A DNA stretch of 64,000 bases, taken from assembly GCA_003331425.1 (NCBI GenBank), contig QOOS01000003.1, positions 1-64,000 on the forward strand. The letters are read 5' to 3'. Made by a program: the position numbers and the translations under genes. Source of the stretch: Candidatus Nitrosopumilus sp. Lineage in GTDB: Archaea; Thermoproteota; Nitrososphaeria; Nitrososphaerales; Nitrosopumilaceae. Positions 58,224 through 62,204 of this stretch are shown piece by piece (position 1 is the first letter of the stretch; each line of letters starts with the position of its first letter). The notes under the pieces were generated by a model. The model did no database searches, was not told where the DNA came from, and saw only the letters and a program-made list of their open reading frames with translations.

Positions 58224-58478
58224 ATGATCGAAAAAGAAGATGCAAAAAAAGTCATCGAGGTAATTGGCAATAATTTGATAGGAGTTTCGCATGATTCAAG
58301 TAGTTTTCAGAAATTACCTGACTCGTTTTGGGGATATTTTGCACGAGGTCACGATAAAAAAGGAACATTTGGAGTAATTGTCACATATTCTGAAGAAGGA
58401 AAAGACGTAGATGAATTAATGAAAATGTATGAAGAATGGGCCAAACAAAACAAACCTCAGAAAGAAGAATCTACTTGA
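58224..58478 (+). CDS. small hypothetical protein
   Basis: ORF. Confidence 0.6.
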   Translation: MIEKEDAKKVIEVIGNNLIGVSHDSSSFQKLPDSFWGYFARGHDKKGTFGVIVTYSEEGKDVDELMKMYEEWAKQNKPQKEEST

Positions 58479-59532
58479 TCAATGTTTTAAAATTTTGATC
58501 GTGTCTTAATCCTATAAAATCAGGATCACTTTTGATTTTATTCAAAAAATTTCCATGTTCATGATTATGTTCATGTTCATGATTATGTTCATGTTCATGA
58601 TTATGGGCGTTTTTTCTTTCTAATTCTAATAATTTTGTAATTAACGCACATGTTTGTTTATTGTTGTTTTGTTTAGCAGTAGACTTTGCTTTAAAATACA
58701 ACGAATTCATTTCTTCAGGATCATCTTTTAGAATTTTGTTAAAACACAAAATTGCTTGTTTGTATTGTCCCATCAAATGTAAAGAATAGCCTTTATTGAT
58801 AATAACATCTGTATTGTTTTTTTCTTTATGCAATATTTTATTAAAATATACTAATGCATCTTCAGGTTTCTTCAAACTGTTACAAGCAACACCTAAACGA
58901 AACATTGCATCAAAATCTTTTGGATCATGTTTTACAGCTTGTTTAAAGCATTCGTAAGATAATCGAAATTTTTGAATTTCTAAAAGAGAGTTACCAATAT
59001 TGCATAATGAATCTATATCGGTTTTGTCCTCATTTAATGCAGACTCAAAATATTCAATTGCTTTGTAATGTTGCTTATCACCTGCATAAACAATTCCAAT
59101 ATTATTCAAAATTTCAATATCTCTAGGATGAATCTCTAATGCAATTTTGTAGGTAGAAATTGCATCATCATGCCTACCTAATGCAACAAAGACATTAGCT
59201 TTGTTACAAAGTGCATTTGTGTCTTCAGGGTTAATTTTTAGAGCGTGATTAAATTCACTTAATGCCTCTTCATATTTTCCCATATCATATAATGTAGTTG
59301 CCTTGTTATACAGTCCATCAAAATCATCAGGAGTATGAATTAGAACTTTTTCTAACTCCTCAAGGGATTCATCATATTTTCCAAGTTCTGCAAGACAAAC
59401 AGCCTTGTTAATTATCATTTCAGAATTATTTGGATTTTCTTCTATAATCATTTCAAAAAGGTTGATAGATTTTTGAAACTTTTTTTTATCAAAATCCCGA
59501 ATTGCTTGTTTCAATAATGAATCAAGTATCAT
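58471..59532 (-). CDS. TPR protein with His/Glu-rich segment (HNHEHEHNHEHEHNHEHG)
   Basis: about nine TPR motifs; H/E/N tract near the C-terminus. Confidence 0.88.
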   Translation of the reverse strand: MILDSLLKQAIRDFDKKKFQKSINLFEMIIEENPNNSEMIINKAVCLAELGKYDESLEELEKVLIHTPDDFDGLYNKATTLYDMGKYEEALSEFNHALKINPEDTNALCNKANVFVALGRHDDAISTYKIALEIHPRDIEILNNIGIVYAGDKQHYKAIEYFESALNEDKTDIDSLCNIGNSLLEIQKFRLSYECFKQAVKHDPKDFDAMFRLGVACNSLKKPEDALVYFNKILHKEKNNTDVIINKGYSLHLMGQYKQAILCFNKILKDDPEEMNSLYFKAKSTAKQNNNKQTCALITKLLELERKNAHNHEHEHNHEHEHNHEHGNFLNKIKSDPDFIGLRHDQNFKTLIK

Positions 59533-59765
59533 GCAACTGCTACTCTTTTTGTCAATGCATTTGTTGGAACTATGTGTATTTCTTCTTTGTTCTCAACAGA
59601 ACTAAAAAAAATTCTAGTACATTTTTCAAAATAATAAGTTTCAGTATGTTCGTGGTTTTTAAATAGAAACACTTCAGCTTCGGGTTTTATCGCAAGCCAG
59701 GTAACATTATTGTTGATTATACCTAGACTTTTCCAGTCATCAAATTTTGGAATATATGTTGTCAA
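59529..59765 (-). CDS. small hypothetical protein in the metal-uptake operon
   Basis: ATGA overlaps with both neighbours. Confidence 0.65.
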   Translation of the reverse strand: MTTYIPKFDDWKSLGIINNNVTWLAIKPEAEVFLFKNHEHTETYYFEKCTRIFFSSVENKEEIHIVPTNALTKRVAVA

Positions 59766-61096
59766 TTACACTCTAATGCAATTTCCAAGTTATCAACATT
59801 TTGTCTCATTTTTTCAAAGTATGTTACCTTTGGATCGTCACTTTCAGAAAGAGACTCTAATGGACTAAACAACAAAATGTCTCCTCCCAATTCAGCGGCC
59901 AATCTTTCAGCTAATTTTGGATTTCTGTTTTCTTCAGTGAAGAAATACTTTATGTCATTGTCTTCAGCAAAATGAATTAGTTCCTCAATATCCTTTGCAG
60001 TTACAGGAGTTTCAGGGCTGAACTCCTGTATTACTGCCAAGGTGTTGAGGTCATATCTCTCTGCAAAATACGAAAATGCATTGTGGAATGGTACAAACGT
60101 GTCTTTTGCGCAAGAAGATACATCACTACGGATTTCTTGATCCAGTTGATCTAATTGGTTAGCATATGAAATAGCATTATCATGGTAGATTTCTGCATGT
60201 GCAGGATCGGATTCTTGTAAGTGGTCTGCAATCGTCATTACCTGAGCTTTTGCTAATATAGGATCAAGCCAAATGTGTGGGTCATAAGTATGGTCGATGG
60301 CTCCTTCTTCTCCATGTTCATCATGTCCATCTTCTTTTGAATGGTCATCGTGTACATCTTCACCAGAAACTAAATGATGAATTTCTTCTAGTCCTTCTGC
60401 ACCGTCAATGTGTCCATCTTCAATTTCATGAATTAAATGTTCAATATCTTCAATTGCACCTTCATGTCCATGTCCGTCTCCTTCATGTTCACTTAGTATC
60501 TCTTCAATTTCTTCAATAGATTGTGATTGGGTTATTTCGCCTGCTTCAAATTCTTCTATAACATGTTCAATCTCTTTGTAAAAGTCTTCAGTATGTTCAT
60601 CATGTCCATCTTCTTTTGAATGGTCATCGTGTACATCTTCACCATGACTTCCATGTGAACTATGATCATGTGCTTCACCTTCCATAAGGTCAATTCCTTC
60701 AGATGAATCAACAAATACAATGTGTGCAAAATCAGATGCAGACATAATTTCATCAATGTATGGTTCAAAGTCTGCACCATTGTAAATTACCATATCTGCT
60801 TTGGTTAATGCAGCTATAGTTTGTGGTCCCAATTCAGATGCATGAGGATCAGCATTGGATGGAATTAAAATTCTTACTTCAGCGGCATCTCCTGCAACAC
60901 CTTGTGTAAATTGGTATAATGGGTAAAATGTAGTATAAACTAGAAATTTCTCTTCAGGTTCAATAGCAATATCATTTTGTGGGTCTACAGTTGGAACAAC
61001 AGCATCATTTTGGGCTCCCATAGATACGAACAATACTGCGATGATTACAGCAGCTGCAATTCCTCCACCTATAATTCCAATTTGAGAGCCTTTCAC
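59762..61096 (-). CDS. ZnuA/TroA-type metal ABC transporter substrate-binding protein with long His-rich insertion
   Basis: 'YTTFYPLYQFTQGVAGDAAEVRILIPSNADPHASELGPQTIAALTKADMVIYNGADFEPYID', 'DPHIWLDPILAKAQ', 'FFTEENRNPKLAERLAAELG'. Confidence 0.92.
   Translation of the reverse strand: MKGSQIGIIGGGIAAAVIIAVLFVSMGAQNDAVVPTVDPQNDIAIEPEEKFLVYTTFYPLYQFTQGVAGDAAEVRILIPSNADPHASELGPQTIAALTKADMVIYNGADFEPYIDEIMSASDFAHIVFVDSSEGIDLMEGEAHDHSSHGSHGEDVHDDHSKEDGHDEHTEDFYKEIEHVIEEFEAGEITQSQSIEEIEEILSEHEGDGHGHEGAIEDIEHLIHEIEDGHIDGAEGLEEIHHLVSGEDVHDDHSKEDGHDEHGEEGAIDHTYDPHIWLDPILAKAQVMTIADHLQESDPAHAEIYHDNAISYANQLDQLDQEIRSDVSSCAKDTFVPFHNAFSYFAERYDLNTLAVIQEFSPETPVTAKDIEELIHFAEDNDIKYFFTEENRNPKLAERLAAELGGDILLFSPLESLSESDDPKVTYFEKMRQNVDNLEIALECN
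60314..60365. repeat. 52-bp exact direct repeat, copy 1
   Basis: atgttcatcatgtccatcttcttttgaatggtcatcgtgtacatcttcacca, identical to 60593-60644. Confidence 0.95.
60593..60644. repeat. 52-bp exact direct repeat, copy 2
   Basis: identical to 60314-60365. Confidence 0.95.
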
Positions 61097-61384: not shown

Positions 61385-62140
61385 TTAATCAGTTGGCACC
61401 TCATTTTTACTTTTATTGAATTTGTTGTAACCCTCTTGGTTGTAACCATCTTTGTCATATCCTAAATGGTCATATCCTAGTTTGTCAAATCCATTGGAAT
61501 CGTAACCATTTTCATCAAATCCATTGGAATCGTAACCTTCTTTGTTGTAACCTTTTTCATCATAACCATTTGCATCAAATCCATTGGAATCATAACCTTC
61601 TTTGTTGTAACCATCCACATTGTAACCTTTTTTGTTGTAACCATCTAAGTCATATCCATCCTTGTTAAATCCATTTTTATTAATTCCATCTAGGTTGTAA
61701 CCATTTTTGTTAAAACCATCTTTGTTGTAACCGTCTACATTGTAACCTTTTTTGTTGTAACCATTTGTATCAAAGGTGGTTTTTGTGTCAATATGGATTC
61801 CATCTATTGAGAAACCACGATTATCATACCCATCCGTATTGTAACCTTTTTTATCATAACCTTTTTTGTTGAATCCATCTTTGTTGTAACCCTTAAAATC
61901 AAATCCATCTTCATCATATCCTTCTTTGTATCCTTTTTTGTCGTATCCCTTTTTGTCAAATCCTTTTCTATCATATCCTCTTTTGTCATATCCTTTTTTG
62001 TCATATCCATTTCTATCTAATCCATTTTTGTCATATCCTTTTTTGTTGTATCCACTTTTGGCAAACCCATCTCTATCATATCCATCTAGATCATAGCCTT
62101 GTTTGTCAAATGTATGACTAAATTTATCTAAGAAACCCAT
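61385..62140 (-). CDS. pentapeptide-type repeat protein, about 45 units of G-[YF]-[DN]-x-x
   Basis: translation 'GYDKKGYDKRGYDRKGFDKKGYDKKGY...' across nearly the whole ORF; 15-bp DNA period. Confidence 0.85.
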   Translation of the reverse strand: MGFLDKFSHTFDKQGYDLDGYDRDGFAKSGYNKKGYDKNGLDRNGYDKKGYDKRGYDRKGFDKKGYDKKGYKEGYDEDGFDFKGYNKDGFNKKGYDKKGYNTDGYDNRGFSIDGIHIDTKTTFDTNGYNKKGYNVDGYNKDGFNKNGYNLDGINKNGFNKDGYDLDGYNKKGYNVDGYNKEGYDSNGFDANGYDEKGYNKEGYDSNGFDENGYDSNGFDKLGYDHLGYDKDGYNQEGYNKFNKSKNEVPTD

Positions 62141-62204
62141 TATAGAATATCACGAATTCATTTAGATAAGCGTTTTTGTGCCTAATAAAGTCCAAAAAAT
62201 TAGA

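Follow-up and report, generated by a model that had tools for sequence, protein, structure and literature searches.

What kind of protein is built almost wholly from a single five-residue unit, and what could such a protein do in a marine ammonia-oxidising archaeon? The question is raised by a gene of Candidatus Nitrosopumilus sp. at positions 61385-62140, on the minus strand, of the window, by which we mean the whole stretch of 64,000 nucleotides (contig QOOS01000003.1) that was analysed. The open reading frame, picked out from its letters in the original prediction, proves to be a real gene that starts with ATG and encodes 251 residues plus a stop. We call its product the GYD protein. No signal peptide or transmembrane segment is evident by eye, in agreement with what had been predicted.

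Layout of the repeat

Each pentad has glycine at position 1, tyrosine or phenylalanine at 2 and aspartate or asparagine at 3, followed by two variable positions, x1 and x2. There are 42 regular G-[YF]-[DN]-x-x pentads (11 + 8 + 23), close to the 45 or so first claimed, and the spacing between Gly-aromatic pairs is exactly five, save at a unit GYKE, at a 13-residue unit and in the N-terminal lead-in. The chain begins with a segment, MGFLDKFSHTFDK (residues 1-13, 62102..62140; this and all the following features are on the minus strand), that is conserved among orthologues, with M1, G2, D5, F7, T10 and D12 invariant, and that would be mildly amphipathic if helical (hydrophobic moment 0.50-0.71, a value reached by 1-3% of shuffles). 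Unit spacing then defines a first block of 11 pentads (residues 15-69, 61934..62098), the four-residue unit GYKE (residues 70-73, 61922..61933), whose position is kept in most orthologues, and a second block of eight pentads (residues 74-113, 61802..61921). The 13-residue unit, GIHIDTKTTFDTN (residues 114-126, 61763..61801), separates these from a third block of 23 pentads that is net acidic by charge count (residues 127-241, 61418..61762), and a tail of 10 residues (242-251, 61388..61417) completes the protein.

The 13-residue unit had been taken for a single non-repetitive break, which is incorrect: it can be read as two pentads with three residues between them (5+3+5), and it recurs in other proteins. 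The form GIHKxTGTKYDxx and close variants are found in archaeal paralogues (GIHIATGTLVN in L024, EIHKVTGTKFD in L021), in Clostridia and in Fusobacterium mortiferum, and a shorter cousin, HENGTxYD, is recurrent in Kurthia. The GYD protein follows the grammar of the whole family, G-[YFW]-[DN]-x-x in strict five-residue register with an optional 13-residue unit GIHxxTxTx[YF]Dxx.

The original prediction also described a Lys-rich front half and a D/N-richer back half, with Lys and Asp/Asn alternating at the x-x positions. The charge does differ as claimed, the ratio of K+R to D+E being 26/23 ahead of the 13-residue unit and 16/24 behind it, but Lys predominates at x1 in each half (59% before the unit and 52% after it, over orthologues). 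It is x2 alone, occupied by Asn, Asp or Lys, that shifts from Lys-rich to Asn/Asp-rich, and 'alternating' is a loose description. The resemblance seen between the start of the protein and other MGLF-type starts in the window (19162 and 25462 on the plus strand, 23229 and 56666 on the minus strand) is superficial, since these have little in common past four residues and lack the upstream block of the GYD gene.

Two neighbouring minus-strand genes, named from their sequences, encode a ZnuA-like metal-binding lipoprotein with a long His/Asp/Glu-rich insert (59762-61096) and, adjoining it, a TPR protein with an HEHEHNHEHEH tract (58471-59532); their content suggests a putative zinc-uptake cluster.

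Relatives and upstream block

Matches to the GYD protein occur in named genomes of Nitrosopumilus, other Nitrosopumilaceae and marine Thaumarchaeota. A family profile matches in 51 of 250 Nitrosopumilaceae genomes, partial matches and paralogues being counted, and at a stricter cut-off in 17 of the 398 genomes of the phylum; the GYD protein is an accessory protein of Nitrosopumilaceae. When repeat number is compared among relatives, as had been proposed, length is found to be nearly constant: 25 of 36 distinct orthologues have 249-252 residues, and several others differ by whole pentads (241, 246 and 286 residues). Pairs of orthologues give a dN/dS of about 0.1, which falls to about 0.05 for the Gly-aromatic-Asp frame of the closest pair. 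Purifying selection and near-constant length together exclude chance and non-coding status. Local homogenisation is apparent inside single proteins (e.g. L009 and L012), and since stretches are homogenised while total length stays mostly fixed, the length itself may well be under selection.

No neighbouring genes that might indicate an operon or a partner are common to the 11 contexts compared, save in the close pair L054/L064. The ZnuA neighbour was rejected as a general link because it is common only to that pair. In some relatives other arrangements are seen. One genome carries a 59-residue miniature second copy (L048, G174:C1:1066005-1066160) in which upstream block, N-terminus and C-terminal tail are retained and few repeats are left, as though by internal deletion. 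Another encodes a GYD-repeat protein of 180 residues with a C-terminal CxxC...CxxC zinc ribbon (L021:1486-2025, G028). A dispersed repeat of ~57 bp (CCCACGGGGATTCACCYACC...AAAATGGACGCAGATAGG) lies just upstream of the GYD gene in relatives, and some species have a further copy right after the gene, in direct orientation (copies at L059:5659, 8098 and 8967; L060:7363, 8968 and 10052; L061:7417, 8690 and 9586). It is present in one to five copies per genome in eight of 12 relatives tested and in no copy in the genome of the window; it gave no significant DNA folding and matched no Rfam family.

Immediately ahead of the gene is a conserved block of ~37 bp (62141..62177, minus strand), probably a promoter. 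Over 36 orthologues the mean top-base frequency is 0.79 at -40..-1 compared with 0.43 at -120..-61, and the 37-40 bp ahead of the ATG have the consensus AAAAt.cTTatcTgAATTgaATTcATgAaaTTcTgTt. Within it, a TATA-like element, CTTATCTAAA (62161..62170, minus strand), is recognisable by eye and by conservation, and its distance from the start would fit a leaderless or near-leaderless archaeal transcript. An imperfect palindrome, GAATTCGTGATATTC (62145..62159, minus strand; GAATTCATGAAATTC in relatives), is a possible operator. The final ~20 bp of the block also stand ahead of the SKDGF paralogue (L024), and a similar block is found before an unrelated MGLFGRKK gene in the relative G006; these common blocks suggest that the genes may share regulation. 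A search for a promoter regulon returned this paralogue and the one unrelated gene only, and no regulator was found. The G006 gene, MGLFGRKKTDKEKEEDQ... (L079:1533 onward, G006:C1:584541), has a block nearly identical to that of the GYD gene, and its product contains tandem repeats of ~70 residues that presumably resemble INT_rpt.

The pentad repeat is not confined to archaea. A scan of named genomes found it in Desulfotomaculaceae, Syntrophomonas, Clostridium, Kurthia, Caryophanon, Anaeroplasma, Fusobacterium, Kapaibacterium, Riflebacteria and Ca. Ichthyocystis, among others, with the strict five-residue register kept across archaea and bacteria; it is present in 22 of 61 genomes of the Fusobacterium mortiferum family and 25 of 200 of the Kurthia family, and also on Gordonia plasmids and viral contigs. 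Most bacterial copies are 40-50% identical to the GYD protein across about 235 residues, and descent from a common ancestor is likely, part of this identity being owed to the simple repeat itself. Many copies are fused to other domains: double zinc ribbons (L147, L149), SF1 helicases (L148, L173, L190), DnaJ plus DUF6273 (L182), VWA plus OmpA (L164), DUF4145 (L159, L171) and, in Cetobacterium and Fusobacterium vincentii, PelG. No model scores above its cut-off on the repeat part of these fusions, and in bacteria the repeat thus serves as a linker between functional domains. The repeat of PelG is a C-terminal extension with a lipoprotein-like start (LSGCTS and LGGCAS in L231 and L232), and stand-alone lipoprotein relatives are also found (L178, L188). 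Proteins of 1700-2000 residues encoded on marine viral contigs (L195, L196) contain more than 110 GYD pentads, with few charged x1 residues.

Turn length from charge covariation

Does the repeat fold, and if so with what turn? The bacterial arrays were cut into pentads and the charge covariation of x1, x2 and the Asp position was measured at each lag against a null in which whole units were shuffled within each array. In a discovery set of 1889 bacterial units the two strongest of all combinations link a pentad to the third one after it, x2(i) with x1(i+3) (z -9.7, and of the expected sign in 41 of 44 proteins) and the Asp position, D(i), with x1(i+3) (z -7.4). The same two pairs again head the ranking when mutual information is calculated over all amino acids. 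Lys or Arg occupies x1(i+3) in 73% of cases if x2(i) is acidic and in 53-54% otherwise, and in 70% if the Asp position holds Asp, compared with 50% if it holds Asn.

Both statistics were fixed before new sequences were tested. A first small set (473 units) gave z -4.0 for D-x1 and -0.8 for x2-x1. In a larger set of 858 units the values were -5.3 and -5.1, lower than those of all the other combinations among the 63 examined, and the sign did not change when Fusobacteria, viral contigs and the Kurthia family were each analysed separately. This set has no 20-mer in common with the discovery set, but some of its families are related to families there, so that the two sets are independent as sequences and not in every lineage. 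The coupling has a direction, x1(i)-x2(i+3) being about zero, and it is essentially absent at lags 2, 4 and 6. Tandem duplication of three-unit blocks therefore does not explain it. As a control, 424 pentads of the pentapeptide-repeat family PF00805 were treated in the same way, and gave their top mutual information between i and i (z 7.9) and their strongest negative charge coupling between i+2 and i+2 (z -4.3), both at lag 4. This matches the known four-pentad coil of that family (PMC8145042), implying that the method can read turn length.

The GYD repeat, then, most likely has three pentads, or 15 residues, per turn, and the solenoid or fibre of the original prediction gains support from the charge covariation of the bacterial copies, which falls at three pentads exactly and is backed by a positive control. 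The coupled residues are 14 and 16 apart, not 15, which suggests that x1 sits between the Asp and the x2 of the previous turn, in contrast to the in-register stacking of the PF00805 units. Archaeal orthologues, in which few charges vary and whose sequences are closely related, are weakly informative when taken alone: only one class is more negative than D-x1 at 16 residues (t -2.8), and neither x2-x1 at 14 nor unit shuffling gives a signal. From its similarity to the bacterial copies and the grammar shared with them, the window protein may be expected to have the same geometry.

AlphaFold2 models were locally confident for both the window protein (pLDDT 86.6, pTM 0.42, with the N-terminal segment at low confidence) and a Kurthia protein (pLDDT 88.9, pTM 0.47). 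Neither model has strand ladders, and Foldseek gave no significant match with either. Because AlphaFold2 is reported to be over-confident on near-perfect repeats (PMC11795689), we give these models little weight.

A proposed rod, its rivals and known repeat systems

On balance we think it probable that the GYD protein is a stand-alone rod, a salt-bridged solenoid or spiral of three pentads per turn that acts as a structural spacer or scaffold. The rod would probably be cytoplasmic, with about 14-15 turns of 15 residues each. Lys or Arg at x1 would face the Asp and the acidic x2 of the preceding turn, 16 and 14 residues away, in salt bridges that join turn to turn, with the glycine and the aromatic residue defining the repeat. 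The 4- and 13-residue units would be fixed register changes, dividing the rod into a front part close to neutral and a back part that is acidic, and the N-terminal MGLxDRFSxTFDK segment would probably be a docking or membrane-contact end. The archaeal turn, the part played by the N-terminal segment, the operator and the function as a scaffold are inferred in this way. The likeliest job would be that of a spacer or scaffold expressed from a regulated promoter of its own, since this best fits the stand-alone rod, the amphipathic N-terminus, the charge contrast and the inter-domain use in bacteria. Much more tentatively, the repeat could represent a separate unnamed fold class that occurs in archaea, in many phyla of bacteria and on some viral contigs. 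It would be a spiral with 15-residue turns and salt bridges from i to i+14 and i+16, distinct both from strand-laddered beta helices and from helical solenoids, and would serve bacteria as a modular spacer and make up the whole protein in Nitrosopumilaceae.

The sequence could also be read as that of a disordered polyampholyte of stickers and spacers, forming condensates or gels in which the near-neutral and acidic parts interact. It is of low complexity and rich in Gly, Tyr and charge, with Tyr or Phe at every fifth residue and Lys and Asp between; moreover no fold is matched, pTM is low and the local confidence may be spurious in a near-perfect repeat (PMC11795689). Disorder needs neither an exact five-residue register across domains of life nor a charge coupling over three units, however, and we consider it doubtful. 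Cation binding had been raised as a possibility in the original prediction. The Asp and Asn residues might hold a divalent ion, Ca2+ for example, in the way that RTX and dockerin loops do, which would make the protein a cation buffer or give it a metal-dependent fold; the regular [DN]-x-[DN]-G stretches of the C-terminal part speak for this. The reading now seems unlikely. Lys predominates at x1, and the acidic positions vary together with the Lys/Arg found 14 and 16 residues further along, in the next turn, in a manner that points to salt bridges. Pfam and NCBIfam searches up to E 1 give no match to an RTX, EF-hand or dockerin model, no signal peptide is evident, and the ZnuA neighbour is not general.

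The patchy presence of the gene, its lack of shared context and the ~57-bp repeats that flank it in several relatives might instead mark a low-complexity gene, selfish or neutral, that mobile elements have spread and that has no definite function, but such a gene would hardly show the dN/dS, near-constant length and conserved upstream block seen here, and we regard this as distinctly improbable. Least credible is a divergent protein of the PF00805 kind, a DNA mimic acting on topoisomerase. The five-residue period, the acidic C-terminal part and a weak phmmer match to designed pentapeptide-repeat proteins (E 0.0015) speak for it; against it, a search up to E 1 gives no match to PF00805 itself, Asp/Asn comes after the aromatic residue where in PF00805 units it comes before, the covariation indicates three units per turn and not four, and the overall charge is not strongly acidic.

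If the salt-bridged rod is correct, it represents a second way of building a pentapeptide solenoid. Its geometry is testable and was read from the sequences only, with a procedure that gives the right answer for a repeat of solved structure, and it offers a case in which AlphaFold2 confidence on repeats can be checked by covariation. For Nitrosopumilaceae, attention is drawn to an accessory gene that varies in genome position and keeps a conserved upstream block of its own.

How does the repeat compare with systems already described? It is widespread, yet unnamed in the curated libraries searched: Pfam, NCBIfam, PHROG and PDB sequence searches gave no family above cut-off on the repeat, so that the search for a characterised repeat family proposed at the outset identified none. 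A literature search with the repeat words found no description, only an unrelated human TAF15 peptide, and a paper on Ca. Ichthyocystis gene families mentions repetitive motifs and does not name this one. One profile likeness is to DotG/IcmE of type IVB secretion, which shares the Gly-aromatic spacing (profile match E 4e-14). Its unit, however, is a decapeptide, G[YF][ST]xxxLKxA, that lacks the Asp/Asn and Lys pattern, and the NF033900 model scores 20.5 bits on the repeat region alone, whereas that equivalog calls for at least 750 bits and a VirB10-like C-terminal domain. DotG was set aside as a homologue, its unit being of a different make-up; what is shared appears to be period and composition. 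PF25296, the Decapeptide repeat region, is likewise sub-threshold on the repeats of L157, L148 and L159 (26, 23 and 21 bits); its cut-off is 45 bits, and the GYD protein scores 11.2 and the bacterial copies at most 26.1.

The elastin-like repeat VPGVG is also a Gly-containing pentapeptide, and in its classical beta-spiral model there are about three pentamers per turn. It is hydrophobic, unlike the GYD repeat, which is highly charged and has no proline, and elastin-like repeats are now described as disordered (PMC5703643). Three-sided beta-solenoids, such as the Knotted Solenoid fold (PMC13123833), also have three sides per turn, but these are formed from parallel beta-sheets, of which the models of the GYD repeat have none. 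A further comparison is with PF00805 proteins of the MfpA/Qnr kind, which share tandem five-residue units and a turn-to-turn covariation of solenoid type. Their unit is [STAV][DN][LF][STR]G in a coil of four pentads (PMC8145042), and membership is recognised by at least eight contiguous consensus units or a model match and by a quadrilateral coil of four pentads (20 residues). The GYD protein has no model match and a unit order of G-[YF]-[DN]-x-x, and its bacterial copies couple at lag 3 where the control couples at lag 4, the archaeal signal being weak. The two repeats would differ in the turn itself, with four units in register at 20 residues in PF00805 and three units coupled at 14 and 16 residues in the GYD repeat.
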